From positions 897,358-961,357 of the forward strand of contig KE159636.1 in assembly GCA_000403315.2 (NCBI GenBank): DNA of 64,000 nucleotides, read 5' to 3'. The notes below the pieces were generated by a model. The model ran no database searches. It was not told the origin of the DNA and worked only from the letters and a program-made list of their open reading frames with translations. The stretch comes from Lachnospiraceae bacterium A2 (lineage in GTDB: Bacteria > Bacillota > Clostridia > Lachnospirales > Lachnospiraceae). Shown piece by piece: positions 7,252 to 61,912 of this stretch (position 1 is the stretch's first letter; each line of letters begins with the position of its first letter). The translations under genes were made by a program, and so were the position numbers.

Positions 7252-7265
7252 TTAATTTTTATCAT

Positions 7266-7324
7266 CAGCTAAAGGTGGTGTATAAAATGCCTGCCCTGTG
7301 GAATTTTAATGCCAGCTAAAGGTG
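7266..7324. repeat. Short direct repeat at the island's left edge
   Basis: The 12-mer cagctaaaggtg occurs at 7266-7277 and 7313-7324. The rest of 7256-7466 has no gene; a possible -10 (ctataata at 7421-7428) precedes the first island gene. Confidence 0.5.
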
Positions 7325-7466
7325 ATGCATGGCAATCCATCCATCTTTTTCCCCTGCTGCATCCATCCCTCATCCTAATTTCTGCAAATTTTCCCCCCAT
7401 TCATAACTTGCTATAATATACCTGTAAACAAAACAGATTTAGGAGAAAGTAAAGGAGGAATGCAAC

Positions 7467-7745
7467 TTGGAAAGAAATTTGGAGAACTATTTAACAGCAC
7501 AGGAAAAGAAAAAGATGGATGAGATCATATCCAGGGCAATGAAGAGGAGGGAGGAAAATGGATGGAAAGAAGATGGGATGCAGCCATTTGAGTTTGTAGT
7601 TGTTAACTGTCAGTGCCAGGAAGCAGAGGAAGAACAGGAGGTACAGGATGAAAAAGATAATATTGATCAAATGCTTGGCAGGATGTGCAAATGCATCAGG
7701 GCCTGTGGGCGCTGCCCCAGAGAGGACGAGTCCCTGCCCTTTTAG
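7467..7745 (+). CDS. Hypothetical acidic protein with C-terminal cysteines
   Basis: 92 residues from TTG 7467, with AAAGGAGG 8 nt upstream. The ATG at 7460 opens a different, 20-codon frame. The N-terminal half is helical and charged (NYLTAQEKKKMDEIISRAM). The C-terminal part, CKCIRACGRCPRE, carries four cysteines, suggesting metal binding, though that is weak. Its one CGC arginine codon is the exception to AGA/AGG use in the island. The last third overlaps the start of the next reading frame. No family recognised. Confidence 0.6.
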   Translation: MERNLENYLTAQEKKKMDEIISRAMKRREENGWKEDGMQPFEFVVVNCQCQEAEEEQEVQDEKDNIDQMLGRMCKCIRACGRCPREDESLPF

Positions 7746-7962
7746 GGATATGCAGGATGGATATGACCCAGAGGAGGATAAGAGGGAGACAGAGCTTAAG
7801 ATTTCTTACCAGAAGGGCAGGAAGGATGCCCTGCTCCAGTTAGTGATGGATGAAGCCATCACACTGGATGGGGTCCATCCCTATATAGAAAGAGTAATTG
7901 AGGAGCTGAATGAATTACAAAAATATCAATACAGTTTGATGTTTGGGCTGGAAGAAATTTAG
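7648..7962 (+). CDS. Hypothetical protein, start overlapping the preceding gene
   Basis: 104 residues if the ATG at 7648 is used; that start has a strong AGGAGG 6 nt upstream inside the preceding gene. An alternative ATG at 7750, just after the upstream stop, gives 70 residues but has only a weak site. The longer form begins with a hydrophobic segment, MKKIILIKCLAGCANASG. The remainder is acidic and helical (ETELKISYQKGRKDALLQLV). If the long form is real, 7648-7745 is read in two frames. Two of the five CpGs in the island lie in exactly that overlap. No family recognised. Confidence 0.5.
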   Translation: MKKIILIKCLAGCANASGPVGAAPERTSPCPFRDMQDGYDPEEDKRETELKISYQKGRKDALLQLVMDEAITLDGVHPYIERVIEELNELQKYQYSLMFGLEEI

Positions 7963-7993
7963 GGGGATGTTTCTGGAAAAGAATGGGATGTTT

Positions 7994-8018
7994 CCCAGGA
8001 GTGCCCTGCACTCCTGGG
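7994..8018 (+). promoter_or_regulatory. GC-rich perfect hairpin
   Basis: cccaggagtg and cactcctggg form a perfect 10-bp stem around ccctg. No T-run follows, so it is more likely a structured leader or protein-binding site for the XRE gene 100 nt downstream than an intrinsic terminator. Confidence 0.45.
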
Positions 8019-8114
8019 GAGCAGGTACATAGTGTTGGTGTTCCCACATTTCCTTCCAGAAATGCAAAATCCCATATTTATAGTAGGAATTTACAATAAG
8101 GAAGGGGTTTGCTT

Positions 8115-8519
8115 ATGGAAGAAAAAGGCATTAGAATTTGCCAGATGCTGGAGGAAATGCTGGAAAACCAGGAAATATCCCAGGAAGAGGAAAGGAAAAT
8201 CAGGGGATTATTTGAGGAGAGGGAGCATAGAAGGGCTGAAATCAGGATTGCTTATGATTTGTTAGTCATGCTCCAAAAGGAAGTCAGATATGAAAATAAT
8301 TTTAAATCAAATAGCCTTGATATTTCAGGTGGATTTGGTGCTGCATTGTATCAGGCAAGGATGAGGAATGGGATTACCCAACAGCAATTAGCAGGACTGA
8401 CTGGGATAAACCAAGCTGACATCAGTAGGTTTGAGAGAGGCTTTTCAAACCCATCTTTAGCCACTATTAAAAGATTAGCAGATGGGCTGGGCATGGGTCT
8501 GAGCATTGATTTTATATAA
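8115..8519 (+). CDS. XRE-family regulator with an N-terminal helical extension
   Basis: 134 residues from ATG 8115; ribosome site aaggaagggg. Residues ~1-60 are a charged helical segment (ICQMLEEMLENQEISQEEE). Residues ~70-134 are a lambda-repressor-type HTH: ALYQARMRNGITQQQLAGLTGINQADISRFERG, then NPSLATIKRLADGLGM. The order, extension then HTH with a short strand-like IDFI end, resembles HigA-type antitoxins. No adjacent HigB-like toxin was seen, so a plain transcriptional role is equally possible. The gene contains no CpG. A bidirectional terminator separates it from the convergent recombinase gene. Confidence 0.8.
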   Translation: MEEKGIRICQMLEEMLENQEISQEEERKIRGLFEEREHRRAEIRIAYDLLVMLQKEVRYENNFKSNSLDISGGFGAALYQARMRNGITQQQLAGLTGINQADISRFERGFSNPSLATIKRLADGLGMGLSIDFI

Positions 8520-8529
8520 GGAATAACAA

Positions 8530-8551
8530 GGCACTGCCTTATGGCAGTGCC
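8530..8551. terminator. Bidirectional intrinsic terminator
   Basis: ggcactgcc / ggcagtgcc form a perfect 9-bp stem with loop ttat. It lies between the XRE stop (8519) and the convergent recombinase stop (8557). Confidence 0.7.
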
Positions 8552-8556
8552 TATGT

Positions 8557-9249
8557 TTATGTGTGGATGGCTTGCTGATTTTCATATTTATGTGCCAGCT
8601 TATAAAATGAATTTGGTTTCAGCCCCAAGGATTTCATGGCAGCAGTGGCAGTGATTTCCTTTAGTTTCCATTTTTGGTAGTATTCCTCAAAATTATCAGG
8701 GAATTGTATTGATGGTCTTCCAATGTATCTTCCAGTCCTCTTACTGATTCTCCTCCCAGTTTCCACATCTACAGGCATAGCTGCCAGACCTTCAGCTTGT
8801 CTGGCATGGATTGTCAGCCTTTCATTTTCAGCTATTGATGTCAGGACTTCTATTAAGATATTATTTATCATGTCCAGAATCCATTCCTGCCCTGCTGCAA
8901 CCTCAGCCATAGTGGAAGGGATGTCAAGGATTTTTACCCTGACCCCAATCCCTGAAAAGTACTGTAGTTCCTTTTTGGCATCTTCCTTATTCCTGCTAAA
9001 CCTGTCCAAAGACATGATATACAATGTGTCCCCTTTCACCAGTTTCCCAATCCCAACTTTCAATGACTGGTATCCAGCCCTGTTGAAGTCCTTGCCACTT
9101 GCCTTGTCAGCCACTATCATCTCCTCAGGGACAAACTGCCTCAGTGCCACAATCTGCCTGTCCAGGTTCTGCTCCCTGGAGCTTACCCTGGCATATCCTA
9201 CTGTTTTTCCTATTTTTCTTCCTCCTCCCTTTTTAAAACTTTCCTGCAT
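8557..9249 (-). CDS. Serine recombinase (resolvase family)
   Basis: About 230 residues from the ATG at 9249; an ATG at 9312 extends the frame but runs through the repeated upstream motif. The N-terminal catalytic domain is recognisable: TVGYARVSSREQNLDRQ with the nucleophilic serine in ARVS, then YIMSLDRFSRNKED (the conserved arginines), the AGQEWILDMINN core and IAENERLTIHARQAEG at the E-helix. The C-terminal ~50 residues, GRPSIQFPDNFEEYY ... ATAAMKSLGLKPNSFYKL, are the HTH. Small serine recombinases of this size resolve cointegrates or invert segments. It is a candidate for the enzyme that moved this island, which is inference. A perfect inverted repeat lies upstream. Confidence 0.85.
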   Translation of the reverse strand: MQESFKKGGGRKIGKTVGYARVSSREQNLDRQIVALRQFVPEEMIVADKASGKDFNRAGYQSLKVGIGKLVKGDTLYIMSLDRFSRNKEDAKKELQYFSGIGVRVKILDIPSTMAEVAAGQEWILDMINNILIEVLTSIAENERLTIHARQAEGLAAMPVDVETGRRISKRTGRYIGRPSIQFPDNFEEYYQKWKLKEITATAAMKSLGLKPNSFYKLAHKYENQQAIHT

Positions 9250-9252
9250 ATG

Positions 9253-9349
9253 GGAAATATTTACAAACATTTGCAAACCCTGCACATGGTATTTTACAAA
9301 CACTTTTCCCATGGCATTTCAGTTATTTGTAAAAGTATGCTTTTACAAA
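9253..9349. promoter_or_regulatory. Repeated tttacaaaca motifs and perfect inverted repeat upstream of the recombinase
   Basis: tttgtaaaag-tatg-cttttacaaa (9326-9349, one half slightly offset) is a perfect 10-bp inverted repeat. Two further copies of tttacaaaca occur near 9260 and 9293. Clusters like this upstream of a resolvase gene are typical of res subsites or of autoregulatory operators. Which one applies cannot be decided from sequence. Confidence 0.5.
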
Positions 9350-9380
9350 GAGTATAGCAGTGGGATGCCTGGGAAAACTT

Positions 9381-9410
9381 TTGCAGAAACAGGAAGTGGC
9401 ATGGTATAAT
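9381..9410 (+). promoter_or_regulatory. Sigma-A-type promoter
   Basis: TTGCAG at 9381-9386, an 18-nt spacer and TATAAT at 9405-9410 preceded by TGG (extended -10). It faces the gene at 9443. Confidence 0.6.
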
Positions 9411-9442
9411 GGTGATAAATATTAACAAAGGAGGAAAGGGTA

Positions 9443-9733
9443 ATGGAGTGCATTATATCAAGGGCATCTACCATAAACAGGTGCAATAGGGATGGGAAAC
9501 TGCATTTGTTTTTCACAGAAAAAGAGAGACCCTGTGGGAAGGCATATTTGAAAGAAATCTTAGACAGTGGTGGCAATAAGTGCAGCAGGTACTTCATTGA
9601 CTTGGGAACAGTCAGTGAGGTGGATAGGCTTGGCGAGGAATATGGGGTGGATGTCCTGGTGACAAGGAACCTGGATTTCCCACAGTGCATTGCCCTTGTC
9701 CTGTATGATGAGGAAATAAAGCAGGGCAGGTAA
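9443..9733 (+). CDS. Hypothetical protein (96 aa)
   Basis: ATG 9443 with AAAGGAGG ideally placed and a good promoter 33 nt upstream. The product, MECIISRASTINRCNRDGKL ..., has scattered cysteines, a central YFIDLGTVSEVDRLGEEYGV and ends DEEIKQGR. No membrane segment. The only CpG is at 9634 in GGCGAG. It is monocistronic: the next 500 bp contain no gene. No family recognised. Confidence 0.6.
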   Translation: MECIISRASTINRCNRDGKLHLFFTEKERPCGKAYLKEILDSGGNKCSRYFIDLGTVSEVDRLGEEYGVDVLVTRNLDFPQCIALVLYDEEIKQGR

Positions 9734-10248
9734 TGCATCAAGGTGTGCTGGGGCCATTTGCTGGGGATTCCCACAACTCAAGGGCTGTCTTTGTCCCCTT
9801 CCATGAAATCCACTAAAATTTTATTTTTTGGAATCCCCCATATTTATTGTGTAATGAAAATGAAGAAGGGGAGGGAAGGCATGGGGTTTGAAATTTAATT
9901 GGGGAAAGCATCCATATTTAATGTGTACAAAATAAAGAAGAGGAGGGAAGACAGAGGCAGCAGTAAATAGGGACACCCTGGGATGTAGGTTCTTGGAAAA
10001 GAGAGGGGGGGGGGGTGGGAAGAAGGGAAAATAATTCTTATAGTTAATGTATGATAACTATTGGGTCCAGTGTCCACACTATTCCATTAATGACATAAAG
10101 TATTTAGTTCCACATAACCTTCTATGTATTATAAATCAGCCATGGCAGTCCTTGGGGATTGCTGTGGCTGTTTTTTGTGAAAAAATTCTTTTATTGGGAA
10201 AATCCATTTTGAATATGTAAAAAATTCAAAAAAGGAGGGCTACATAAG
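9734..10248. repeat. Gene-free spacer with degenerate repeat and a G11 tract
   Basis: No convincing gene on either strand. Two similar segments, ccatatttattgtgtaatga (from 9838) and ccatatttaatgtgtacaaa (from 9910), are each followed by a gaagaaggggaggg / gaagaggaggg purine stretch, so they look like duplicated promoter/leader DNA. A run of 11 G lies at 10005-10015. A hairpin (cagccatggcag ... ctgtggctg, 10137-10171) followed by a T6 run precedes mazF. Confidence 0.6.
10137..10177 (+). terminator. Terminator or attenuator hairpin in the mazF leader
   Basis: cagccatggcag pairs imperfectly with ttgctgtggctg and is followed by TTTTTTGTG. It belongs to the same hairpin-plus-TTTTTTGTG design seen at 16899 and 17547 ahead of other island genes. 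Confidence 0.55.
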
Positions 10249-10587
10249 ATGTGCAGGAGAGGAGACATATTTTGGGCAGAATTGGGAAGGGATGCTGATG
10301 GCAGTTTGCAGGCAGGTGGAAGGCCTGTGCTTGTCATTTCCAATGACAAAGCAAATGAGTATTCACCAATTATTACTATTATACCCATTACCAGCAAAAT
10401 GAATAAGGCAAAACTGCCAACCCATGTCCTGATTGAAGCATGTGGTCTCACAAGGCTCAGCATTGCCTTGGCAGAGCAGATAACTTCTATTAATAAGGGA
10501 AGGCTGGGGAGGAAGATTGGGAGCATACAGCAGACTGCCTATGTTGGGCTTATAAAAAGGGCAATAGGGATTCAACTGTGCTTATAA
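10249..10587 (+). CDS. mazF: MazF/PemK-family endoribonuclease toxin
   Basis: 112 residues, standard length. The N-terminus CRRGDIFWAELG, then GGRPVLVISNDKANEYSP (the conserved GxRPVxVxxN core), PITSKMNKAKLPTHV and the C-terminal LAEQITSINKGRLGRKIG carry the family signature. Family members are sequence-specific mRNA interferases neutralised by a small antitoxin. Start ATG has AAAGGAGGG upstream. No antitoxin gene is visible directly upstream; the nearest upstream gene ends 515 bp away. Some Firmicutes MazF genes have antitoxins so short they are missed, but none was found here. No CpG in the gene. Confidence 0.88.
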   Translation: MCRRGDIFWAELGRDADGSLQAGGRPVLVISNDKANEYSPIITIIPITSKMNKAKLPTHVLIEACGLTRLSIALAEQITSINKGRLGRKIGSIQQTAYVGLIKRAIGIQLCL

Positions 10588-10608
10588 AAAGGGCACATTT
10601 AATAGGAA

Positions 10609-10640
10609 AAGCCTTGGCAGATGCCCTGCCAGGGCTTTTT
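10609..10640. terminator. Intrinsic terminator after mazF
   Basis: aagccttggcag / ctgccagggctt form a 12-bp stem with one mismatch, followed by TTT. It lies between mazF and the convergent gene at 10739. Confidence 0.75.
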
Positions 10641-10738
10641 CCATTTCACAAAGGCTGTCTGCTGGTATCCATGGCTTTTCCCTGAATGCAAAAATGGAAC
10701 CTGCCCATGGCAGATTCCAATTTTTCCTGTGTCATTTT

Positions 10739-11236
10739 TTACTGGGCCATCAGCCCCTCCAGCCATGCTTTTTCCTGCCTTGGCAGCTCTTCCAGGACAA
10801 CAACCTGGAAATCAAGCATGTATTGGAAGTGGTAAATTCCCTGCCCCTCTTTCACCACAGCAATCTCTGAGTCATCCAACTGCTGCATCAGCCCTTTGGG
10901 TTTCTTCCCTGAAACCAGGGAGACTGTGGTATTCCCTGGCTTGGCTGTGGCAATGCCATCCCTGCAAAGGCAGGCATAGCCATTCAGTAAGAATACCACA
11001 TCAATGTTCAGGGATGCATCTGTGAATCCATATGAAATGATATTGTACCCCCTGAAGAAACCACCAAGCCTGTTCCTAATTTCTATGTCAATGGGTTTTA
11101 TGACTGCAACTGTTTTGATGGGTGCCCTCCTGCATTCATGCCTAGTGCCAGTTTCCCCATCCATCCAGCAGCTTGACAAATCTAATCCAATATTTTCTGT
11201 AGTGCAGCATGACAGTTTTCTATTCCCTTTTCCCAT
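10739..11236 (-). CDS. PD-(D/E)XK/Rpn-related protein, probably catalytically altered
   Basis: 165 residues from ATG 11236 (AAAGGAAGG upstream). The central block IDIEIRNRLGGFFRGYNIISY, LNIDVVFLLNGYACLCRDG and the GIYHFQYMLDFQVVVLEELP end match a large Lachnospiraceae family usually about twice as long. Those members read FRxxNIIEYKSPxDxLNID at the nuclease site. Here the ExK is replaced by ISYGFTDAS, so the nuclease chemistry is probably lost. It may be a degraded or repurposed copy. No CpG inside. Family placement is from memory of the motif. Confidence 0.5.
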   Translation of the reverse strand: MGKGNRKLSCCTTENIGLDLSSCWMDGETGTRHECRRAPIKTVAVIKPIDIEIRNRLGGFFRGYNIISYGFTDASLNIDVVFLLNGYACLCRDGIATAKPGNTTVSLVSGKKPKGLMQQLDDSEIAVVKEGQGIYHFQYMLDFQVVVLEELPRQEKAWLEGLMAQ

Positions 11237-11358
11237 TCTTATACTTCCTTCCTTTCTGTCCTCCAATGGTTTTCTTTTACATTTACATTATTAAATATGG
11301 TAGGAAGGGCATATAGAAATTTTAACTGCCCCATAGGGAACCTCCCTATATTAATAAT

Positions 11359-13153
11359 AACTTCTCGGAATCTTCAGCCCTTATTTTATATGACTTTCAG
11401 ACCCTCTCTCAAAAAAATCACCCACTTTTTTCCACTAAGCACTTGACAAATCGTTCAAAATTTGCGTTACTGCCTATTGATCTTCTTTTATTTCTTTCGA
11501 CTGGAGGCGATTTCTTTGTTACCTTTCAATCCTGGCGGACATGCCGCCTATCAGGATACTTTTGTATCCAATTTCCTTAAATTTTATCCTGATCCCTTTG
11601 TACTTCCTAAAAGCACTTGGGATTATATCGTACAGTTTTGGTTTCTTGATCTTTCCCAGACCGATTCCATAATGCAGGAATGCTATTCTGTTTTTGGGCC
11701 TGTTCCACGGCTCCCTTCCTGTATGCTGCGTTCCTTTCTGCTTGCTTTGAAATTGAAGGTAACTTCCATCACTCTCTGGTGCCGTATGCTCAGAGAAACT
11801 CCTCTTTATGCCCTCCTCAGTGGTTTTTCTTCCGGCGATACCCCTGGGGTAGGCACTTTTTATGACTTCTTTTCCCGTATTTGGCAAAATGACTCCAATA
11901 ACCTCTCTCCAAAAGACCGTTTTCCCAAGATTAAGCCGCCTAAGGGTAAAAAGAAAGGCGATAAGACTCCCTGCGATTCTTCCAGCATCGCTTCTAAGCT
12001 TCTTCCTTTGTTGGAACGCTGCCATTTAAAACCGAAAAATCCGTTCTCTCTCATTTTCCGTCTTTATAAACAGCAGTTCCTAGATCTTTCCATTCATAAG
12101 GGCTTGATCTCCCCTGACCATCTGGCTCTTGCCGGGGATGGAACTCCTGTCCGCACCGCTGCACAGCAGCGCAAAAAGCGGATCTGCGATTGCAGGGAGC
12201 GTGGCTGTTATTCCTGTAACTGTAAACGCCGCTATTCCCAGCCAGACTGTAACTGGGGGTGGGACTCCCACCGGGACTGCTATTTCTTTGGCTACCACCT
12301 CTACATGTATGTGGCTTCCGATTCGCACAGTGACCTTCCCGTTTTTCCTATTTTAGAGCGCGCTTCCCGCCATGACATGCTTTCTTTTCTCCATTCCTTT
12401 TTCACCATGAAAGCATATCTTCCGCAGCTGCGCATCGAAAAACTTCTTCTGGATTCTGCCCACGATGCTTATGCTGTCTATGAATACTGCAAACGGAAAA
12501 ATATCTCGCCTTTTATCGACTTGAATCCCGGACATACTGGGCATTTCACTTACAAGGACGATTTCACCATTGATGACGATGGCGTCCCAGTCTGTAAGCT
12601 GGGCTTACGTATGCATAAAGATGGATACGAGGCTGCCAGATACCGAGCAAAATACCGGTGCCCGAAATCAAACCGGAAATGTGGCTGCTTCTGTGAACAG
12701 CCCTGTTCACCAGCTAAATACGGCAGGACTGTGCACATTTTTACAGATGATAATCCAAGGTTATTTAACATACCGCCAAGGGATTCTAAAGCATGGAAAA
12801 AGGAATATGACAGAAGGACCTGCGTGGAACGCTCCAACAAGCGTGAGAAAGAGGACTATAAATTGGAAGGCGGCAGGCACCGCTCTACGAAGATGTGGTA
12901 CTGCCGCCTCTACGGCATCATGATGCTCCAACACCTTGATGCATGGGAAATGCCATCAACTGAGGCATTTCAACAATCATTATTAGGATTCGCCGCCTAA
13001 TAATGATATATTAAGCCATTCCAAAAGATTTTTCAAGGCATAGTACCCGCTATGTCCAATGTTTATGTCCATTTTTCGCAAATTTCTTTTTCTGCACGAT
13101 ATTCAGTTGTCAATTTTCTGTTGGTACCTCATTTATTGAGATTCCGAGAAGTT
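11359..13153. mobile_element. 1.8-kb insertion sequence, copy 1, with 5-bp target duplication
   Basis: Inverted repeats AACTTCTCGGAATC (left) and GATTCCGAGAAGTT (right), flanked by direct repeats ATAAT (11354-11358 and 13154-13158). It contains one long transposase gene and has ordinary CpG content, in sharp contrast to the DNA on both sides. A near-identical inverted copy is at 41295-43089. Confidence 0.9.
11462..13000 (+). CDS. Cysteine-rich DDE transposase (IS1182/IS4-like)
   Basis: About 512 residues from a TTG at 11462; an alternative start inside is possible. The N-terminal ~120 residues (TWDYIVQFWFLDLSQTD ... GTFYDFFSRIW) resemble the InsH/DUF772 N-terminal domain. The central part has LALAGDGTPVRTAAQ as a likely first catalytic Asp, LLLDSAHDAYAVY as a second, and ERSNKREKEDYKLEGGRHRS as the Glu region. 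Between them lie two unusual cysteine clusters (CDCRERGCYSCNC and CGCFCEQPC) that could bind zinc. Family assignment is tentative. Copy 2 differs by one visible residue (K versus E in LALKLKVT). Confidence 0.8.
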   Translation: MRYCLLIFFYFFRLEAISLLPFNPGGHAAYQDTFVSNFLKFYPDPFVLPKSTWDYIVQFWFLDLSQTDSIMQECYSVFGPVPRLPSCMLRSFLLALKLKVTSITLWCRMLRETPLYALLSGFSSGDTPGVGTFYDFFSRIWQNDSNNLSPKDRFPKIKPPKGKKKGDKTPCDSSSIASKLLPLLERCHLKPKNPFSLIFRLYKQQFLDLSIHKGLISPDHLALAGDGTPVRTAAQQRKKRICDCRERGCYSCNCKRRYSQPDCNWGWDSHRDCYFFGYHLYMYVASDSHSDLPVFPILERASRHDMLSFLHSFFTMKAYLPQLRIEKLLLDSAHDAYAVYEYCKRKNISPFIDLNPGHTGHFTYKDDFTIDDDGVPVCKLGLRMHKDGYEAARYRAKYRCPKSNRKCGCFCEQPCSPAKYGRTVHIFTDDNPRLFNIPPRDSKAWKKEYDRRTCVERSNKREKEDYKLEGGRHRSTKMWYCRLYGIMMLQHLDAWEMPSTEAFQQSLLGFAA

Positions 13154-13256
13154 ATAATAGAAGGGACACCCAAATGGTTTAATGGTCTCTGCAAAAATTT
13201 TCCAGGGATGGTTAGTGGTAGGATGGAGGGGAGGAAAAAGAAAGGAGGAAGCAGAT

Positions 13257-13781
13257 TTGAAAGAGAAGAAGATGACAAGGAAGATGAAGGGGTGGGGTAT
13301 CTATATAGGGGTCCTGATTATAGTGTTCACTGCCTGCAACCACTTTTTTATGTTCAGTGAAGTGCCAACAGACAGCATGGCAGGGACCATTGAGCCTGGG
13401 GACACCCTGGCATGCACTAGGTTTGGAATTGGGGAGGGGGAGGTTGGGAGGTATGATATTTTAATCTTCACCCCACCTGATGAGCCAGGGATGCTTTATG
13501 TAAAAAGGGTGGTTGGGCTTCCAGGGGAAACCATAGAGGTAAAGGATGGCAAAGTGTATGCTGATGGTGCTGAGCTGGATAATTCTTTTACCAAGGCTCC
13601 CCAGAACAGGAGGGGGGATGGGGTTTATAAGGTCCCAGAAGGGCATTATTTTTTCCTTGGGGACAACAGGAACAATTCAAATGACAGCAGGTTCTGGAAA
13701 CAAAAATATGTGCCTGCTGCAAACCTTAAGGCAAAGGCAAGGCTGATAACCTTCCCATTCACAAGGATTGGCTGGCTGTGA
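13257..13781 (+). CDS. lepB: Signal peptidase I
   Basis: 174 residues from TTG 13257, chosen because GGAGG lies 8 nt upstream; a longer frame has no site. One N-terminal membrane segment (WGIYIGVLIIVFTACNHFF, ~10-28) is followed by the catalytic serine in VPTDSMAGTI, the substrate-binding YDILIF box and the catalytic lysine in YVKRVVGLPGE. The C-terminal box E, FFLGDNRNNSNDSRFW, is complete. It is a Bacillus-type (SipS) enzyme that cleaves signal peptides outside the membrane. No substrate-like secreted gene sits beside it. No CpG in 525 bases although the enzyme is well conserved, which argues for mutation across silent sites and not for random or non-coding origin. Confidence 0.92.
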   Translation: MKEKKMTRKMKGWGIYIGVLIIVFTACNHFFMFSEVPTDSMAGTIEPGDTLACTRFGIGEGEVGRYDILIFTPPDEPGMLYVKRVVGLPGETIEVKDGKVYADGAELDNSFTKAPQNRRGDGVYKVPEGHYFFLGDNRNNSNDSRFWKQKYVPAANLKAKARLITFPFTRIGWL

Positions 13782-13838
13782 TATTGCATGCAGGGACAGA
13801 AAAATATTTGAAGAGATGGAGAAAAGGGGGAGGAAGGC

Positions 13839-14162
13839 TTGGACAAACTGATAGATGATTTGCTGAAAAAAGGCTTGGGAAACTTTATTGGCAGAAGCAG
13901 GGATGCCCTTATTTGGGATGATGAGGTTTACCAGAAATGCAGCAGGGAAGAGGATAGGGCAGAAGAGGAGTTCCTGGGGCTTGGGCTGACAGTGGGGCAG
14001 GTAAAAATTATAAACAATTATGTTTCAGATGTCAGGGCTACAAACCATAGATACTCAGACCTGTCTTATCTGGCAGGGGTGAAAGACACAGTGGGGATGT
14101 TGGTTTCCCTGGATATGGTTAAAGGTGTGGAGCTGGGAGAAGGGGAGGATATGGGGAAATAA
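13839..14162 (+). CDS. Hypothetical protein, DUF6809-like
   Basis: 107 residues from TTG 13839 with gggggagg upstream. Helical and acidic: LIDDLLKKGLGNFIG at the start, EEEFLGLGLTVGQVKIINN in the middle and YLAGVKDTVGMLVSL near the end. The middle and end resemble small Lachnospiraceae proteins of the DUF6809 type, a weak resemblance. It starts 57 nt after signal peptidase I in the same direction. No CpG. Confidence 0.5.
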   Translation: MDKLIDDLLKKGLGNFIGRSRDALIWDDEVYQKCSREEDRAEEEFLGLGLTVGQVKIINNYVSDVRATNHRYSDLSYLAGVKDTVGMLVSLDMVKGVELGEGEDMGK

Positions 14163-14192
14163 TTGGTAAAAGCAGGGATATGGAAAAATGAT

Positions 14193-14218
14193 GGGAAGGG
14201 GAAGGAAAACCCCTTCCC
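14193..14218 (+). terminator. Hairpin downstream of 14162
   Basis: gggaagggg / ccccttccc, a perfect 9-bp stem with loop aaggaaaa, followed by tttcctt. Probably ends the signal-peptidase transcript. Confidence 0.5.
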
Positions 14219-14410
14219 TTTCCTTCCTTGTCTGGAAGGATGGAAAGGGAATGTTCCCACACTTAGAAAACTGCTGTGCAGCAGGGATGGGGCAGGTGAC
14301 AGGCATATTATTTTTGGGGTTGAAAAAGCCCTGATGGGTGGTGCCCACCAGAGCCTGTATCAATGATCTTATGTTCAATATCTCATGTTTGGGACTGCCT
14401 GATGCCAGTG

Positions 14411-15055
14411 CTATTTAATGGCTGTTTTGATGGCATCCTCTTTGGAATTGATAGTTTCAATTTCTGCTAACAGGGCGGCCATGTCAACACAGCCAAAGGT
14501 TGGGAGGAATGGCTTGCCCTCTGAGCTGTCAATGGTATAGAGGACATTCCCAATGGCTTTCCTGATGGCAAAATACCCACATTCCTCACAGGTTTCCTTA
14601 TGATAGAGATAGGTCTGCGCAATGGCATTGTGCTGGGGTTCCCCATTCCCCCCTGCTGTCCTTGTGGCTGCAAGGTAACATCCCTCACTGTATGCCTGGG
14701 TATTTTCCTGGCAGTCCACCACAGCATAATGGAAACCAGCATCCCCAAGTCTTTCCTCCATTTTTCCATAAGTGTCAGAGTGGAGGAGATAGGCTGCCCA
14801 CCCCATGGCCTTCTCCTTCCCCAATGTGGATTCCATGCTGTGAAAGTTTGAAAATTCCAGGTGGTGCAGCTTCAGGTATGAGAATATCACATCTGGGGTT
14901 TTTCCATACAGGCAGTTTTGCAGGGAGCAAACCATGCCCCTTAATTCTGGCTGTGGGATTTTCCCATGGAAGATGGTGGTGTACAGCTTGCCATCTGCAC
15001 CAAAATCAAACCTGTACTTCTGTGTTTTCATAAATTGGGTTACTTTGCCTGACAT
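14411..15055 (-). CDS. Hypothetical protein (214 aa)
   Basis: Start ATG 15055 is preceded on the minus strand by AAAGGAGG at good distance, which favours it over the longer frame from 15130. The protein reads MSGKVTQFMKTQKYRFDFG ... and contains HSDTYGKMEERLGDAGFHY, a CEECGYFAIRKAIGNVLY segment with a CxxC, and ends with a helical LAEIETINSKEDAIKTAIK. No membrane segment and no family recognised. Two of the five CpGs in the island (14476, 14618) fall here. It is divergent from the XRE gene at 15256 across a spacer with a paired operator-like repeat. Confidence 0.65.
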   Translation of the reverse strand: MSGKVTQFMKTQKYRFDFGADGKLYTTIFHGKIPQPELRGMVCSLQNCLYGKTPDVIFSYLKLHHLEFSNFHSMESTLGKEKAMGWAAYLLHSDTYGKMEERLGDAGFHYAVVDCQENTQAYSEGCYLAATRTAGGNGEPQHNAIAQTYLYHKETCEECGYFAIRKAIGNVLYTIDSSEGKPFLPTFGCVDMAALLAEIETINSKEDAIKTAIK

Positions 15056-15173
15056 AAAATCAGCCTCCTTTTCATTTGATATGCCAAGCATATACCATCC
15101 ATGCCTTTGGGCTTTCTGGCAAAAATGCATTGGGCAGTGGGAATGGCTGTATCCATAAATGATAGCATATAGT

Positions 15174-15229
15174 TGAAATTTATCAACAGACCAATATTAC
15201 ATTTTATTTCCCTTGTTGATAGAATTTCA
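15174..15229. promoter_or_regulatory. Inverted operator-like pair between divergent genes
   Basis: tgaaatttatcaaca (15174-15188) and tgttgatagaatttca (15214-15229) are inverted copies, differing by one inserted base, with centres about 40 bp apart. They lie in the spacer between the gene at 15055 (minus) and the XRE gene at 15256 (plus), a usual place for autoregulation by the XRE protein. Confidence 0.6.
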
Positions 15230-15255
15230 CAATAATAAGAAAGGTGGAAGGAAAA

Positions 15256-15591
15256 ATGAATGTGGAACTGTACCTGAAGGAAATGGGGGAAAGAATTATG
15301 CAGAGGAGGAAGAAACTGGGACTGACCCAGGAGGCTCTGGCTGAACTGAGTGAGCTTACCACTCAATTTGTCAGCTATGCTGAGGCTGGAAAGAGGGGGA
15401 TGAGGCCAGAGAACCTGATGAAAGTGGCTGCTGCATTAGGGGTAAGCACAGACTATTTGCTTACAGGGGACATCATTGACAAGGATAAGCTGTTGCTCTC
15501 AGAGAAACTGGACAAGCTGACTCCCCAACAGGTGAGAATTGTGGAAAACATCATTGATGAATGCATTGCTCTCTATAACAACAATAAGTAG
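15256..15591 (+). CDS. XRE-family transcriptional regulator
   Basis: 111 residues from ATG 15256 (ggtggaagg upstream). Classic HTH: MGERIMQRRKKLGLTQEALAEL ... TTQFVSYAEAGKRGMRPENL, then KVAAALGVSTDYLLTGD, which is the usual end of the HTH_3 domain. The ~45-residue tail, KLTPQQVRIVENIIDECIAL, is a common dimerisation or ligand helix in Lachnospiraceae XRE proteins. It probably controls the divergent gene and itself through the repeat at 15174-15229. No CpG. Confidence 0.88.
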   Translation: MNVELYLKEMGERIMQRRKKLGLTQEALAELSELTTQFVSYAEAGKRGMRPENLMKVAAALGVSTDYLLTGDIIDKDKLLLSEKLDKLTPQQVRIVENIIDECIALYNNNK

Positions 15592-15834
15592 CCTTTGAAA
15601 AAGCCACTGGGAAAATGAGGGGGATGGGAGGAGGCATATTGGCTTAGTTTTTCCCCTCCCCACTTTCCCAATTTCATAATCTTACATTCCATGATAAAAT
15701 GTATATAAACTTTATGGGGAAAAGAAGGGGGAGGGAAGCATGCCTGCCTTATCCATGCAGCAGGCTGATTTTGAAATTGAAAATAAACATGATCCATGTT
15801 AATATTATATATAAGGAAGAGAATCATACAGGAG

Positions 15835-16710
15835 ATGAGTGGTTTGGGAGAGGAAAAAGAGAAAAGGATGGGGGAAGGAGTGGCAAAACATACTGTAAAG
15901 GACAGTGTGTTCACTTCCCTGTTCAAAGAAAAGAAATATTTGATAGAACTGTATAGGGCAATCCATCCAGAGGACAGGGAGGCCACAGAAGATGACTTGC
16001 AGGATGTCACCATCAGCAATGTGCTTGTGAATGACCTTTATAATGACATTGGGTTCAGGGTTGGGTCAACTTTACTGATTCTGATTGAGAGCCAGTCCAC
16101 ATGGACTGTGAATATTATTTTCAGGGCACTGATGTATCTGGTGCAGACATACAGGGAATATTTTAAAGAGACAAAGCAGGATATATACAAAAGCAGGAAA
16201 TTAAAGATGCCAGCCCCAGAGTTGTATGTGATTTACACTGGTGCAAGGAAAAGCAGGCCAGGGGAGATTTCATTGTCAGAGGAATTTTTTGATGGGAAGG
16301 AAACCTGCCTGGATGTCAAAGTAAAGATGATATATGATGGCAAAGAGGGGGACATCATAAACCAGTATGTGAGGTTTACTAAGGTATGCAATGAGCAGGT
16401 GTCACTTTATGGGAGGACCAGGAAGGCAATCAAAGAAACTATCAGGATATGTAAAGACAGTGATGTATTGAGGGAATATTTGGAGAATAAAGAGCAGGAG
16501 GTGTTGGATATGTTGATGGAGCTGTATGATCAGGAAGAAGTACTGAAATCATATGTTCAAAGTGAGAAATATGAGGCAGTGGAAGAAGCAGCAAAGGAAA
16601 CAGCAAAAAGAATGTTGAAAGATGGTACATTTTCTATAGATAAAATAGCTGAGTTTGTCAGTCTGCCAATAGAAGTCATTCAGGAGATAGCAGCTTTACA
16701 ATCAGTATAA
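15835..16710 (+). CDS. Rpn-family PD-(D/E)XK nuclease/transposase-like protein
   Basis: About 291 residues from ATG 15835; ATG 15868 is also possible. The N-terminal half has the Rpn signature: DSVFTSLFKEKKYLIELYRA, NDIGFRVGSTLLILIESQS (the E-x-Q of the nuclease core) and TWTVNIIFRALMYLVQTYR. PAPELYVIYTGARKSRPGE and LDVKVKMIYDGKEGD follow, as in family members. The C-terminal part is helical and ends IAEFVSLPIEVIQEIAAL, a short HTH-like tail typical of these proteins. Family members promote recombination or act as nucleases in vitro; the role here is unknown. No CpG in 876 bases. Confidence 0.8.
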   Translation: MSGLGEEKEKRMGEGVAKHTVKDSVFTSLFKEKKYLIELYRAIHPEDREATEDDLQDVTISNVLVNDLYNDIGFRVGSTLLILIESQSTWTVNIIFRALMYLVQTYREYFKETKQDIYKSRKLKMPAPELYVIYTGARKSRPGEISLSEEFFDGKETCLDVKVKMIYDGKEGDIINQYVRFTKVCNEQVSLYGRTRKAIKETIRICKDSDVLREYLENKEQEVLDMLMELYDQEEVLKSYVQSEKYEAVEEAAKETAKRMLKDGTFSIDKIAEFVSLPIEVIQEIAALQSV

Positions 16711-17042
16711 AGAAAGCATTGCTGCCAAAAACAGAAATAAAAAATGCAGGAAGGCAGGAGCCAGAAGGGAGTCTGCCAATCAAAGAAACCATCAGGATAT
16801 GGCAAAGATAAAAGAGTTACAGATGGCAACATAATTTTTGGCAGGTTCCATTATCTATATTGCAAGGGTTCTTAATAGAAGCATAAGAGAAGCAGGGTTC
16901 ACAGTGATGTGCTGTCCTGCTTTTTTTGTGGATTTTTAAAGGGAAGGGCTGGTTGTTGCAGGGTTTATAGGGAGATTTCTTATGGTATGCTTATAGGGCA
17001 GTGATGAAATGCAAGGATTAGACTGGGAAAAGGAGGAGGAAG
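16711..17042 (+). repeat. Spacer with a scrap of the upstream gene and a structured leader
   Basis: No gene. At 16771-16806 gtctgccaat and caaagaaaccatcaggatat repeat two separated pieces of the preceding gene (16659 and 16432), a small duplicated relic. From 16899 a hairpin (gcagg ... cctgc) is followed by T7 and GTGGATTTTTAAAGGG, matching the leader at 17547. A TGGTATGCT extended -10 lies at 16983. Confidence 0.6.
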
Positions 17043-17420
17043 ATGGGAAAAGTAGAACTGTTAGGCTACAAGATCAGCAGGCTGGAGCTGCTGAATGGAC
17101 TGGAAGAGTCTGGGGAGGTCAGTCTGTCAGACCATATGGAATTTTCTGTCAGATTTGAACCAGGAGAAGACATGGCAGTGGCAGTGCTGGAACAATATTT
17201 GGGGATGGAAGATTCCAGTAAATTCTGCCTTAAGCTGGTTTGGGAGGGGATTTTCCATGTGGATGGCATTAGGAATGGCAAATTTCCAAAAGAGGAACAG
17301 TTGAAGTGCTATGACAGCCTGTCCCCTTATGCAGACCAGATTATAAGGATGCTCTCAATAGAAAGTGGCTTGATGGAGGTTGCAGTGGAGAAAAAAGACC
17401 TGGAGCCTGTATGTGGGTGA
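17043..17420 (+). CDS. Hypothetical protein, possible SecB-like fold
   Basis: 125 residues from ATG 17043 with AAAGGAGG 8 nt upstream. The alternation VSLSDHMEFSVRFEPGEDM ... FCLKLVWEGIFHVDG ... LSPYADQIIRMLSIESG resembles SecB-like chaperones. In those a strand-rich half ends in a yFPyxrxixxxlt helix. The resemblance is by pattern only and no SecB-type motif is diagnostic, so function is not claimed. It is monocistronic, behind the repeated leader. No CpG. Confidence 0.45.
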   Translation: MGKVELLGYKISRLELLNGLEESGEVSLSDHMEFSVRFEPGEDMAVAVLEQYLGMEDSSKFCLKLVWEGIFHVDGIRNGKFPKEEQLKCYDSLSPYADQIIRMLSIESGLMEVAVEKKDLEPVCG

Positions 17421-17530
17421 TAAAAAGTTGGCAGGCTTCCAGCCAGACAGAGACAGTTAAGGGGACATTGGGATAGGGGGAGGACAGGGATAAGGGGCAA
17501 AAGCCTGCTGCATTTTTATAGGTGCAAAAT

Positions 17531-17668
17531 ATAAGGGAAAGAGAAAAACAGGATTCACAGGAGTGTGTCCTGTTTTTTGTGGTTTTTTAAAGGGCAAGGG
17601 CTGGCTTTCTATAGTATTTTCTCTAAATTTTACAGAAATCCCCCTGTGGTATGCTGAAAAAGGAACAG
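17531..17668 (+). promoter_or_regulatory. Repeated terminator-like leader, second copy
   Basis: acaggattcacaggagtg then tgtcctgttttttgtgg forms a cagga/tcctg hairpin with a T6 run. It is followed by aaagggcaagggctgg and a TGGTATGCT extended -10. It closely matches the leader before 17043. The remaining part of the 17421-17696 spacer holds nothing else I can see. Confidence 0.6.
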
Positions 17669-17696
17669 GAAAGCAAAGCAGGGGAAGGAGGAATCT

Positions 17697-18422
17697 GTGG
17701 AGAAGTATTATTTTGAGGAAGAATGGAAGGAGGCTGTCTTATTAACCAAAGAAAACAAGTCAACAGTTTTGGTTCTGGATGGGGAGGAGGTGGAAATCTG
17801 CTGCCCTGAAACTGTCAGGGGGAATGTCAGTGAGTGTGGGACACCATGCCTTGTCCTGGAAAGTAAATATCCAAAGGATGGAAACTATGAGGCAATGGCT
17901 TTCTCTTTAGATAACCCATACAGGGAGAATAAGGACTGGATCTGTATGAACCCAATTATTATTGAAGATGCAGTTGGGTATTTCCTTGCCAGCCACCACA
18001 TGGAAGAAATGGTTAGTGGTAGCATGGTTAGCAGGAAAATAGAAAGCAGGGAGGGGGCAGGACCAGATTTCATATTAGGGGATGCCTATATTGAAATCAA
18101 TGTGCCAGATGCCATCCTGAATGCAGCAGGGAATGGCTGGATGCAGGCAAAGTCCCTGATGCTGACTGATGGGAAGGCTGTAAGGTATAGGGATATGGTT
18201 TCAGGGATGGAGAATGGAAATAAGAGGTTTATTCTCCTGACAGTGTTCCAGCATGGGCTGAATGACAAGATGAAGGGTTTCCTGTGCAGGGAACTGAGCA
18301 GGCTCTTTGGGGCAGATTTGCAGGAGAACACTGAATTCTGGGTTATTGACCTAAGGTTAGAACCAGATGGGATCACCCTTTTGTCATGCCAGAACATCAC
18401 AGACATGGTTTTATTAAGCTGA
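17697..18422 (+). CDS. SfsA-like protein with altered active-site motif
   Basis: 241 residues from GTG 17697, with GGAAGGAGG upstream. The order of blocks matches SfsA: a strand-rich N-terminal domain with GEEVEICCPETVRGNVSECG, then the PD-(D/E)XK half PDFILGDAYIEINVPDAIL, then NKRFILLTVFQHGLNDKMK and FWVIDLRLEPDGITLL. SfsA proteins are nucleic-acid binding nuclease-like proteins tied to sugar metabolism. Their core reads DFLL...YVEVK; here it reads YIEIN, so the expected lysine is replaced by asparagine. This suggests changed or lost catalysis. The assignment is by motif order and moderate in strength. No CpG. Confidence 0.5.
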   Translation: MEKYYFEEEWKEAVLLTKENKSTVLVLDGEEVEICCPETVRGNVSECGTPCLVLESKYPKDGNYEAMAFSLDNPYRENKDWICMNPIIIEDAVGYFLASHHMEEMVSGSMVSRKIESREGAGPDFILGDAYIEINVPDAILNAAGNGWMQAKSLMLTDGKAVRYRDMVSGMENGNKRFILLTVFQHGLNDKMKGFLCRELSRLFGADLQENTEFWVIDLRLEPDGITLLSCQNITDMVLLS

Positions 18423-18519
18423 AGGGTGCAGAAGCAGGATGGGTAGAGAAAGTGCATTTTTGCAAGAAATTGAAAGAGGGAAAGGAAGGTACAATGGAGG
18501 AGGAAAGGAGGAGAAGAAG

Positions 18520-19230
18520 ATGGATGAAACATTAAAAAACATCATTTCCAGTCTTGGGGGCAAGGAGATTGGCATTGATGGGACATTCAAATTCCATTGT
18601 ATATGCTGTGGAAAATGCTGCACCCATAGGGAAGACATTTTGTTGAACCCCAGGGATGTCTACAATGTGTCCAGGGAACTGGGCATGTCCCCAGAAAAGT
18701 TGGTAAAAAAGTATTGTGAGGTTTATGCAGGGGAAGACTCAAGGGTCCCCATTGTGAGGGTCAAACCCAAGGGGCATGTGAAAAGATGCCCCCTGCTGAA
18801 AGACAGGAAATGCATGGTCCATAAATCCAAGCCATCTGTCTGTGCCCTGTTCCCCATAGGAAGATTCTTGCAGGCTGGGGATGCAGAAGGGAACATCAAG
18901 GATATTTCTGTGGAAGATGTCCAGTATATTTTTAGCAGGCCTGGATGTGGTGACAATGCAGAATCCCATACTGTGGGGGAATGGCTGGGGCATTGTGGGA
19001 TTCCCATTGAGGATGAATTTTTTATCAAATGGCAGAAGGTTATCATTGAGACAAGCATAATTTTCAGGAAGATGGAAAAGAAATTCAGGCCACATGTAAT
19101 GGAATTGGTATGGACAGCAGCCTTTGTAGTTCTTTATCTGCATTATGACACTGGGGAAGACTTCCTGCCCCAATTTGAAGAAAATGCACAGAGTTTCCAA
19201 GAGCTGCTGCATAAAATCCAGAAAGATTAG
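18520..19230 (+). CDS. YkgJ-family cysteine-cluster protein
   Basis: 236 residues from ATG 18520 (AAAGGAGG 9 nt upstream); the frame is open earlier but without a ribosome site. The cysteine pattern FHCICCGKCCTH then RCPLLKDRKCMVHKSKPSVC and a later CG at GCGDNAES is the CxxCxxCC...C-x4-C-x8-C array of the YkgJ/zinc- or iron-sulphur-chelate family (PF03692). Such proteins bind metal, and some are thought to act in flagellin lysine methylation or as oxidoreductase partners. Nothing nearby specifies the role. The C-terminal ~70 residues are helical. Last gene of the CpG-poor island; no CpG. Confidence 0.8.
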   Translation: MDETLKNIISSLGGKEIGIDGTFKFHCICCGKCCTHREDILLNPRDVYNVSRELGMSPEKLVKKYCEVYAGEDSRVPIVRVKPKGHVKRCPLLKDRKCMVHKSKPSVCALFPIGRFLQAGDAEGNIKDISVEDVQYIFSRPGCGDNAESHTVGEWLGHCGIPIEDEFFIKWQKVIIETSIIFRKMEKKFRPHVMELVWTAAFVVLYLHYDTGEDFLPQFEENAQSFQELLHKIQKD

Positions 19231-19395
19231 AGGATTCCATCCATATCAGGAAGGGGAGGATGCCTAAAAAAATACTATGTCACAGCAGAAGCCCCATATC
19301 CTGCTGGCAGATTATAATTTAGCCTGACAGGGCAACAAAAAACAGAATAAAAGAGTAAACAGAGAACCTTGTGAGACACCCATCTTGCAAGAGAG

Positions 19396-19566
19396 TGTCA
19401 TATAATCTGTGTAAATTGTCCAGACTGCAATTCTGATTTTATCGAATTGTCAAAATCCTGTAAAGGCGAAAACCCTTGCCTTGACAGGATTCTGGCAATT
19501 CGAGTTATATTAATCAAGCAGTCAATGAGAATATTCAGACAATTTACTTACACAGTTTAGATGACA
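19396..19566. mobile_element. MITE-like element with nested hairpin
   Basis: Outer imperfect inverted repeats: tgtcatataatctgtgtaaa at the left and tttacttacacagtttagat(gaca) at the right, each continuing to attgtc/gacaat. Inside is a nearly perfect long hairpin, 19443-19502 (cgaattg ... caattcg, aatcctgt ... acaggatt, aaggc ... gcctt). No gene. The first CpGs after the island lie in this element, and its right end abuts the broken tnpV copy, so it probably inserted there. The sequence 19231-19395 before it holds nothing recognisable and is CpG-free. Confidence 0.7.
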
Positions 19567-40667: not shown

Positions 40668-41294
40668 ATGTTTAAGACACTTTTGGAACAGATCGGAGAT
40701 TACAAAAAAGATGCCATCCTCACGCCGGTATTCGTTGTCCTGGAGGTCATCATGGAGGTCGTTATCCCCATTATGATGGCCGCCATCATTGATTACGGCC
40801 TGGCGGACCAGAGCATTGGAAGGGTGGTGATGATTGGCCTTGCCATGATCGGGGCGGCCATGCTGGCTCTATGGTTCGGGGTAGAATCCGGCAGGACGGC
40901 ATCCAGTGCCAGTTCTGGTTTTGCCATGAATCTGAGACAGGCCATGTATGAAAAGATACAGACATTTTCCTTCTCCAATATAGACAAGTTTTCTACGGCA
41001 GGGCTTGTGACCAGGATGACCACAGACGTGATGAATGTACAGCAGGCATTCCAGATGTCAATCCGTATCTGCGTCAGGGCTCCGATCATGCTGGTCAGCG
41101 CCATGGTGATGACCTTCCTGATCCATCCACGCTTTGCGCTGATCTTTTTGATCGTGATTATCTGCCTGGCAGCCGTGCTTGCCCTGATTTCATCCAAGGC
41201 AAACCCGACTTTAAGAAAAGTTTTCCATGAATATGATGAATTAAATGCGAAAGTGCAGGAAAACGTGAACGGGATGCGGGTAGTGAAATCTTAT
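40668..41294 (+). pseudogene. ABC exporter, N-terminal half only, truncated by an IS
   Basis: From ATG 40668 (AGGAGGC upstream) about 209 residues of an ABC exporter membrane domain remain: five predicted helices and the TAGLVTRMTTDVMNVQQAFQ segment, ending NVNGMRVVKSY. IS copy 2 begins at 41295 and adds a few foreign codons to a stop at 41315. The nucleotide-binding domain is absent and is not found after the IS, so DNA was lost on that side. Non-functional. Confidence 0.92.
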
Positions 41295-43089: not shown

Positions 43090-43294
43090 ATATAATTATG
43101 TGGGAGGAAATATTTCTGATCTTTTTGGCATAGAAGCCTCAAACTCCCAGGCATGGCTTAGTGCCATGAGCATGGAAATCTCTAAGCCAACGAGAATGTT
43201 GGACGGTAATTCAAAGCAGGATACTAACAATATGCCTACGGCTGAAAACAATATGCTATCAGATGGAATGCCACTTATTTCCAATGAGGATTAG
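43090..43294 (+). pseudogene. C-terminal fragment of an unknown gene
   Basis: A frame open from the IS end encodes LYNYVGGNISDLFGIEASNS QAWLSAMSMEISKPTRMLDG ... LISNED and stops. It reads like the tail of a longer protein whose start was removed when the IS flank was rearranged. Family not recognised. Confidence 0.5.
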
Positions 43295-61744: not shown

Positions 61745-61792
61745 TGAATTAACAACTTACATATCAAGACCCCAAAAGTATGAATTTTTTTG

Positions 61793-61830
61793 TAATAGCA
61801 TCTGGACAGGAAACTGCCCAGATGCTATTA
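61793..61830 (+). terminator. Terminator after the surface protein
   Basis: taatagcatctgg / (c)cagatgctatta, 12-bp stem around acaggaaactgc. Confidence 0.8.
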
Positions 61831-61912
61831 TACATTTGGGAAAAGCAAAAGAAGTACATCAAATAAAAATATGGATATATGTTCTTGCTTACCCAGAAAA
61901 GGATGACAAAAA

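Follow-up and report, generated by a model that had tools for sequence, protein, structure and literature searches.

Why should an otherwise ordinary bacterial chromosome contain a protein-coding island from which a single dinucleotide, CpG, is almost entirely missing? The question is raised by a 64,000-nucleotide stretch of Lachnospiraceae bacterium A2 (assembly GCA_000403315.2, contig KE159636.1, positions 897,358 to 961,357), referred to here as the window and numbered from its first base. Between 7252 and 19440, outside an insertion sequence (IS) lodged within the island, there are exactly five CpGs (at 7710, 7727, 9634, 14476 and 14618), which is the number given in an earlier note on this DNA. 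Base composition predicts 467, and 359 would be expected at the observed/expected ratio (O/E) of 0.77 seen in the rest of the window; the deficit corresponds to a log10 P of about −145. Judged by colinear homology, the island is what is left of a truncated Tn7-like transposon, namely its cargo half, and within the DNA sampled the absence of CpG is confined to one family of such elements.

The depletion is sharply bounded. Ten 1-kb windows (7001–11000 and 13001–19000) hold 0–5 CpGs each versus 35–56 expected, whereas the remaining 54, three of which overlap the island’s IS or edge, have O/E values of 0.37–1.13. The island contains the longest CpG-free runs of the whole window (4,825, 1,907, 1,732, 1,331 and 473 bp), compared with a maximum of 336 bp elsewhere. 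The last CpG outside the island is at 7237 and the first beyond it at 19443. The neighboring DNA is thus CpG-normal, as the earlier note had it, and the windowed O/E that it had proposed as a check upheld the depletion. A second, much milder CpG-poor stretch occurs at 60001–63000 of the window (O/E 0.37–0.48 per 1 kb, with GpC up to 1.8).

Neither codon bias nor low GC content was retained as a cause. When 12 island proteins were recoded with the codon usage of the background, a mean of 304 CpGs resulted (263–346 over 500 draws) versus the 2 present, and GC content is 43% in the islands versus 46% in the background. Together, the recoding and the windowed counts agree with the previously claimed effect on the dinucleotide itself, on both strands and in genes and spacers alike. 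When the main copies of the element are pooled (without the smaller fragments L016, L065 and L082), 82 CpGs are found in 152,078 bases versus 6,916 expected, an O/E of 0.012. GpC is normal in the pooled islands (O/E 1.04), and TpG/CpA stands at 1.35 versus 1.12 in sampled chromosome, in keeping with the abundance of TG and CA remarked on before. The chromosomal background consists of samples rather than whole-genome scans, such that further CpG-free regions may exist, and it excludes stretches with known islands or relics (for instance L065–L067, L071–L082 and L138). Across its 1,074 two-kb windows (602,886 bases from five genomes of the genus) the lowest CpG O/E is 0.32; the depletion is not chromosome-wide.

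One way to lose CpG is counter-selection, whereby the element would often pass through cells in which entering DNA is destroyed at CpG by a CpG-specific nuclease or other CpG-reading defense; copies lacking CpG altogether would alone be transmitted, and TG and CA would be the easiest replacements. This is a serious possibility, although it is not the explanation favored here. A cost at each site accounts for both the near-zero CpG and the loss of CGN arginine codons, and under-use of CTAG (0.19), GATC (0.27) and GGCC (0.39) in the pooled islands, versus 0.42, 0.56 and 0.54 in chromosomes, is a mark of an element under restriction. In contrast, all 16 NCGN contexts are depleted, and the surviving CpGs are non-randomly placed, with the palindromic, restriction-type words GCGC (50 versus 10.9) and TCGA (18 versus 3.8) over-represented and CCGG under-represented (strand counts, in which related copies are treated separately). 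Avoidance of palindromes alone was rejected on these grounds, and no nuclease is known to us to have a bare CpG recognition site.

Of the 29 genomes of the genus, five contain the CpG-free element and a sixth has a fragment of it. At the nucleotide level the window island is colinear with contigs G008:C37, G008:C38, G017:C33 and G026:C64, at about 72–94% identity among the matches listed. The longest relative, the 35-kb contig G017:C33, has 25 CpGs versus about 1,620 expected; G008:C28 has 19 versus 901, and G008:C37, the lowest contig, a single CpG versus 495. In the same 29 genomes, TnsB relatives at least 87% identical were found in four (G008 twice, G017, G026 and G031), and each of these five genes is embedded in CpG-free DNA; the overall O/E of 0.16 for one locus (L106) arises since that locus extends into captured cargo. 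The sixth TnsB of the genus (G031:C100), 54% identical, is CpG-normal (0.67). Likewise, resolvase genes at least 78% identical number six in five genomes, the window’s included, and all are in CpG-free DNA, while the next resolvase (55%, G011) is CpG-normal (0.67). Less strictly CpG-poor fragments occur at about 2551.4–2555.1 kb of G000:C1 (L065), in G027:C2 (L082) and in G008:C3 (within L074). In G000:C4 (L005), a 404-bp segment that matches part of the island at 77% identity has normal CpG and represents either an old relic or an ordinary homologue. In Lachnoclostridium sp. UBA7122 (L011), a 15-kb stretch with a CpG O/E of 0.25 contains a 75%-identical resolvase.

The complete relatives are Tn7-like transposons, with a core in the order TnsA, TnsB, TnsC, TniQ. 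TnsB (L073 13738–15603) matches Tn7 TnsB (E 5.6e-39), TnsC (L073 15607–16851) matches Tn7 TnsC (E 2.9e-22; Pfam TniB 2.2e-10), and the target selector TniQ/TnsD is recognized by Pfam (TniQ, 1.4e-16) and PADLOC (TniQ, 1.6e-19). The open reading frame (ORF) preceding tnsB matched no solved structure by sequence and is assigned by fold only, its predicted model (pLDDT 75.8) best matching TnsA 1t0f (E 9.3e-6, TMq 0.67). In the window copy the tns half is missing and only two of the array repeats described below are left; this copy has no tns genes of its own, and TnsB searches of its genome (G000) gave no match at E<=1e-20 or E<=1e-10. It is placed in the Tn7-like family because its cargo is colinear with G017:C33, the other half of which holds the same genes in the same order: a repeat array, two small ORFs, a helix-turn-helix (HTH) gene, a serine resolvase, MazF, a 175-amino-acid (aa) protein, LepB, proteins of 99–107 and 215–239 aa, a second HTH gene, an Rpn-like protein, proteins of 125 and 240 aa, and a CxxCxxCC protein. 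Homology with the relatives stops at about 19391 and the CpG-free run at 19442. The copies have common outer edges; none was found with both ends and clean flanks, or with a target duplication. Their differing neighbors suggest that the element is mobile. Identification of the island as a truncated Tn7-like copy, recurrence of the CpG-free state in related elements, and continued exclusion of CpG as these diverged all go beyond the earlier note.

Cargo of the complete relatives includes giant surface proteins of about 2,430 aa with 7–8 T-Q ester bond domains (L073 4438–11757 and L081 2979–10250), near which a second signal peptidase gene is found, an LPD24 protein, and a ClpX-like protein whose gene contains 1 CpG versus 57 expected. 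A CpG-free ClpX-like gene (L075 6086–7297, 403 aa) is 44–52% identical to other ClpX-type genes, found in five genomes.

The repeat array consists of 7–10 units, 40–49 bp apart, in five contigs (L080 10026–10407, L071, L072, L077 and L078), and could serve as an origin or as a site for partition or resolution. In G017 it adjoins a DnaD-like winged-helix gene. Resolvase, array and DnaD-like gene together may indicate a plasmid-like phase, and could also fit a plasmid-like stage in a different scenario, namely that the elements come from an organism or replicon with a wholly CpG-free genome and that their copies are recent arrivals. Several CpG-free contigs without chromosomal flanks (G017:C33, G008:C28, C37 and C38) fit such an origin, but it is unlikely. 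Host DNA sampled within the genus is CpG-normal, and that of two other genera is moderately low in CpG, which goes against the donor lineage of extreme CpG avoidance suggested previously. TnsB relatives of other genera are CpG-normal or partly depleted, and sequence collections yielded only distant relatives. No TnsB was found among viral contigs; plasmids gave 637 records, all below 60% identity and at 28–30% in the 15 listed; and phages gave 3 weak records for the Rpn-like protein. The one distant relative for which CpG was computed has an O/E of 0.95.

Exclusion of CpG has persisted while the copies diverged. Their aligned parts are about 70–99.7% identical, and among the pairwise alignments listed, pyrimidine differences before G number 0–4 per block, compared with 0.2–23% before other bases. 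CpG-making T>C or A>G changes private to single copies number 6 versus about 158 expected from other contexts (blocks b1, b2 and b4), and some of these six may be non-element bases at the contig tails of L016 and L075. For the window copy the figures are 1 versus 25, and for the second G000 fragment 2 versus 14 (block b3). The ratio of nonsynonymous to synonymous divergence (dN/dS) is 0.06–0.45 in 13 of 14 gene pairs, the exception being the 175-aa gene at 0.90, with a dS of only 0.03. The HTH (8109–8519) and Rpn-like pairs have reached dS values of 1.44 and 1.67 with no CpG in either copy. Because high dS is combined with low dN/dS and no CpG, selection is acting on the island proteins, and their lack of CpG is no frozen relic; a frozen ancient event was rejected on the divergence of the copies and the scarcity of private CpG-making changes. 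The same dN/dS values, from bacterial genes in five genomes, also make it scarcely credible that the islands are artefacts of assembly, masking or eukaryotic contamination. Some relatives do come from metagenome assemblies, and repeats terminate several of the island contigs, but junctions to CpG-normal DNA are present in the window, L065, L075 and L079, and the inner IS is 100% identical to other copies in the same genome.

Captured cargo can still carry CpG, as in G008:C30 (L138 12297–16325), where two captured, CpG-bearing genes (O/E 0.57 and 0.56) lie between nearly CpG-free flanks. The first encodes 531 aa with a weak DUF3102 match and the second a 727-aa, repeat-rich, surface-type protein. 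A 680-base part of the latter has a CpG O/E of 0.50 versus 0.37–0.79 in its seven homologues. Cargo evidently enters CpG-bearing, and the purge is not instant. The 107 CpGs of the two genes together also count against counter-selection. Polarized decay of this cargo offered no usable sites, the homologues being only 70–82% identical.

The transposon family is not CpG-free as a whole, because related elements with TnsB 52–58% identical have O/E values of 0.61–1.07. TnsB matches were found in 16 of 397 genomes of the bacterial family (E<=1e-20) and 6 of 392 of the order (E<=1e-60). Of 18 loci around such matches, three are depleted (0.09, 0.21 and 0.21) and the others range from 0.61 to 1.07; four new loci from the order-level search have O/E values of 0.57–0.90. 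In a TnsB tree of 21 rows, midpoint-rooted and with several forks open, the genus clade, two G247 copies and a G103 copy occupy three separate branches among CpG-normal elements (G137 1.07, G146 0.93 and G194 0.95, for example). On this tree, depletion would have arisen more than once, to different degrees. The G103 element, from another genus (L145/L171, G103:C5 about 118–144 kb), has genes for a helicase, a primase-like protein and a GmrSD N-terminal domain, and comprises about 26 kb at O/E 0.03–0.39 in a 120-kb stretch mostly at 0.4–0.9, where individual kilobases fall as low as 0.16. In G247 the background is 0.42–0.50; about 7 kb of contig C44 is at 0.03–0.24, and contig C137 is likewise low over most of its length. 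A family of 118–168 aa (cluster 11) is shared by both G247 copies and the five copies of the genus that have tns genes; it was rejected as a common cause since no match occurs in the G103 stretches searched.

Depletion on three separate branches, stopping at the element edges, could also be read as self-marking, in which lack of CpG serves the transposon itself; for instance, TnsC or TniQ might prefer CpG-bearing DNA, so that self-insertion is avoided. There is little to recommend this idea, given that one CpG in 35 kb could hardly affect such a preference, CpG-normal relatives manage regardless, and truncated copies without tns genes still exclude CpG on their own branch.

What replaced CpG bears more directly on the cause. 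If counter-selection alone were at work and had reached equilibrium, the proportions of T, A and G would be expected to stay the same. At third codon positions before G (GTN, GGN and CTN), T/A is 2.60 in the islands and 1.40 in chromosomes, the latter rising to 2.15 if chromosomal C is counted as T. In NCN codons, A/T is 3.17 versus 1.48, or 2.20 with all NCG counted as NCA. Changes of A>T before G occur at 0.0154 per site versus 0.0061 elsewhere, a rate close to that of A>T and A>C combined (0.0119), as would result from A>C and subsequent C>T. At four-fold sites, NCA before G has changed to T in 13/252 cases versus 8/381 elsewhere, and A/G>T changes before G number 21, where arithmetic gives about 12 under selection and about 27 under decay. 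Arginine content is kept (4.5% versus 4.7%), with CGN making up 3 of 1,046 arginine codons. The pattern leans toward what decay of CpG to TpG or CpA under purifying selection should give, and in the genus the base proportions fit transition replacement better than the proportional loss of counter-selection. A strand test for single-strand editing came out ambiguous.

Several results weigh against this interpretation. Where CpG-bearing relatives have CpG at homologous sites, the islands have TG or CA in 401 of 999 cases and single transversions in 460, and these many transversions favor counter-selection; transitions exceed the GpC control twofold and are not exclusive. Changes of T>A before G are also raised, albeit not at four-fold sites, and the NCG-to-NCA half of the pattern is missing from the minus-strand genes, with an A/T of 2.53 versus a baseline of 2.78. 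In the depleted G247 and G103 elements the NCN shift is present (3.80 versus 1.58 in CpG-normal elements), but the T/A shift is absent (1.68 versus 1.66). Near-total loss of CGN arginine codons requires very strong mutation or selection, and the CpG depletion described for Mollicutes, treated below, is about forty times milder. No responsible enzyme was identified. Scans of the element ORFs (Pfam, NCBIfam, PADLOC and PHROGs) recognized no methyltransferase or deaminase except one C-terminal PF00145 stretch, just over the family cut-off (E 7.9e-5), in the captured 531-aa gene of G008:C30; for the window island, this agrees with the earlier note, which had seen no CpG methyltransferase gene there. 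PF00145 C5-methyltransferases are found in 24 of the 29 genomes (11 matches in G000, 10 in G031, 8 in G017 and 6 in G026). Methylation is doubtful in G008, however, because this host of the lowest contig has no C5-methyltransferase match at E<=1e-10, only the partial stretch in the captured gene; counter-selection needs no methyltransferase in the host. Of the other two causes raised in the earlier note, methylation decay gains from the base changes, which lean toward it, and loses by the results just listed, while escape from restriction stays in contention.

On balance, the explanation favored, with confidence that stops short of an even chance, is that CpG was almost wholly removed, and is kept out, by a CpG-directed C-to-T process acting during the mobile life of the element. 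It is preferred to a CpG-targeting restriction or barrier, and a mixture of the two is possible. Under this explanation, the process (methylation followed by deamination, or deamination directly) would target the element while sparing its host chromosome. The element would take up CpG-bearing cargo, the CpGs of which would be turned into TpG or CpA, while purifying selection kept the proteins and arginine shifted to AGG and AGA codons; copies stranded in a chromosome would remain as CpG-free relics. The acting enzyme would presumably be a host or donor factor. The loss appears mainly mutational, and probably tied to mobility in the form of transfer, transposition or an extrachromosomal phase, as hinted by the resolvase, repeat array and DnaD-like gene. 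More tentatively still, gut bacteria of the family Lachnospiraceae might possess an activity that edits DNA at CpG, directed at mobile DNA with the chromosome left untouched, under which Tn7-like elements evolved to be CpG-free; such editing would be a bacterial counterpart of repeat-induced point mutation (RIP) or of eukaryotic transposon methylation.

The features of the window island are collected in Table 1. Of its five CpGs, that at 7710 is common to related islands. The inner IS is CpG-normal and has three further copies at 100% identity in the same genome, and is a recent arrival for these reasons; one such copy is at window 41291–43107 (G000:C1:938648–940464). A structure model of the 239-aa protein was of unusable quality, and the 241-aa protein may be SfsA-like. 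Just beyond the island, a group II intron reverse transcriptase is encoded at 20525–21823.

Table 1. Features of the CpG-free island, in window coordinates.
Feature	Position	Strand	Basis or remark
CpG-free island, apparent cargo half of a Tn7-like element, truncated and split by one CpG-normal IS	7252..19391	.	CpG counts and colinear homology
Two repeat copies (CATCACMTTTA-type units, about 47 bp apart)	7257..7330	-	Array of 7–10 units in five related contigs
92-aa ORF	7467..7745	+	Overlapped in another frame by ORF 7600–7962; family in 6 loci including window; contains CpGs 7710 and 7727
HTH_3 regulator, 136 aa	8109..8519	+	Pfam 4.9e-12; dN/dS 0.11
Serine resolvase, 251 aa	8557..9312	-	Pfam Resolvase 2.1e-19
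MazF/PemK-like protein, 112 aa	10249..10587	+	Pfam PemK_toxin 7.5e-26
175-aa protein	10739..11266	-	Family in 6 loci; no Pfam family above cut-off
IS, DDE transposase ORF 11462–13000	11340..13160	+	Weak DDE_Tnp_1 match (0.004); 20-bp inverted repeats, 95%
Signal peptidase I (LepB), 199 aa	13182..13781	+	Pfam Peptidase_S26 1.1e-36
Conserved ORF, 107 aa	13839..14162	+	Family in 7 loci
239-aa protein, no function assigned	14411..15130	-	Family in 9 loci; contains CpGs 14476 and 14618
HTH_3 regulator, 115 aa	15244..15591	+	Pfam 2.3e-13
Rpn/PDDEXK_2-like protein, 304 aa	15796..16710	+	Weak Pfam PDDEXK_2 (0.0063), under cut-off; dN/dS 0.10 at dS 1.67
125-aa protein	17043..17420	+	Weak SecB similarity, under cut-off
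241-aa protein	17697..18422	+	No Pfam family
CxxCxxCC zinc/iron-chelating protein, 263 aa	18439..19230	+	Pfam 1.4e-08
Outer edge of element	19331..19391	.	Sequence common to first bases of G017:C33 and G008:C38

A dinucleotide held at about 1% of expectation inside ordinary chromosomes implies that bare CpG is recognized by something that handles one class of mobile DNA differently from the chromosome, and we know of no bacterial system that does so. A mutational cause would make this a new form of genome defense or element-specific editing, and a selective one would mean that gene transfer in the gut meets a barrier that reads CpG. In either case, lack of CpG provides a composition tag for finding further elements exposed to this pressure. 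No CpG-free bacterial island or element is described in the literature searched (open-licence papers only), consistent with the earlier note, which knew of none.

Known systems resemble the phenomenon in part. Restriction-site avoidance in phages and plasmids leads to under-use of short palindromes, and CTAG, GATC and GGCC are under-used here as well; the missing word, however, is a two-base step, depleted in every context and to near zero. RIP and the CpG methylation of eukaryotic transposons, known in fungi and others, are context-specific C-to-T changes confined to mobile DNA. Such changes would be the likeness to the present case, in which genes are nonetheless intact under purifying selection, and a bacterial counterpart is absent from the literature searched. 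With regard to a RIP-like repeat trigger, the IS, present in four identical copies, has normal CpG, although it is too young for a strong test.

Tn7 and Tn7-like elements share with the complete relatives the ordered TnsA, TnsB, TnsC and TniQ and a large, variable cargo. Differences include the short TnsA (about 145 aa), the serine resolvase, the array of 47-bp-spaced repeats and, above all, the near-absence of CpG over up to 35 kb; the main text of a survey that bounded 6,549 Tn7-like elements does not contain the words CpG or dinucleotide (PMC8649781). Prokaryotic CpG methylation is described in one source as confined to Mollicutes, where enzymes of the M.SssI/M.MpeI type are likewise CpG-specific, act on both strands and are accompanied by CpG under-representation, with an O/E of 0.46–0.5 in M. 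agalactiae (PMC9465063). That depletion is genome-wide, whereas the one reported here is element-confined, at an O/E of about 0.01 and with no CpG-specific enzyme identified; the chromosome-wide loss expected of M.SssI-type methylation is not seen in the 1,074 sampled windows, the lowest of which is at 0.32. As an element, then, the CpG-free island belongs to a known kind, the Tn7-like transposon, while as a phenomenon the removal of a dinucleotide to about 1%, confined to an element, appears new against the literature searched.

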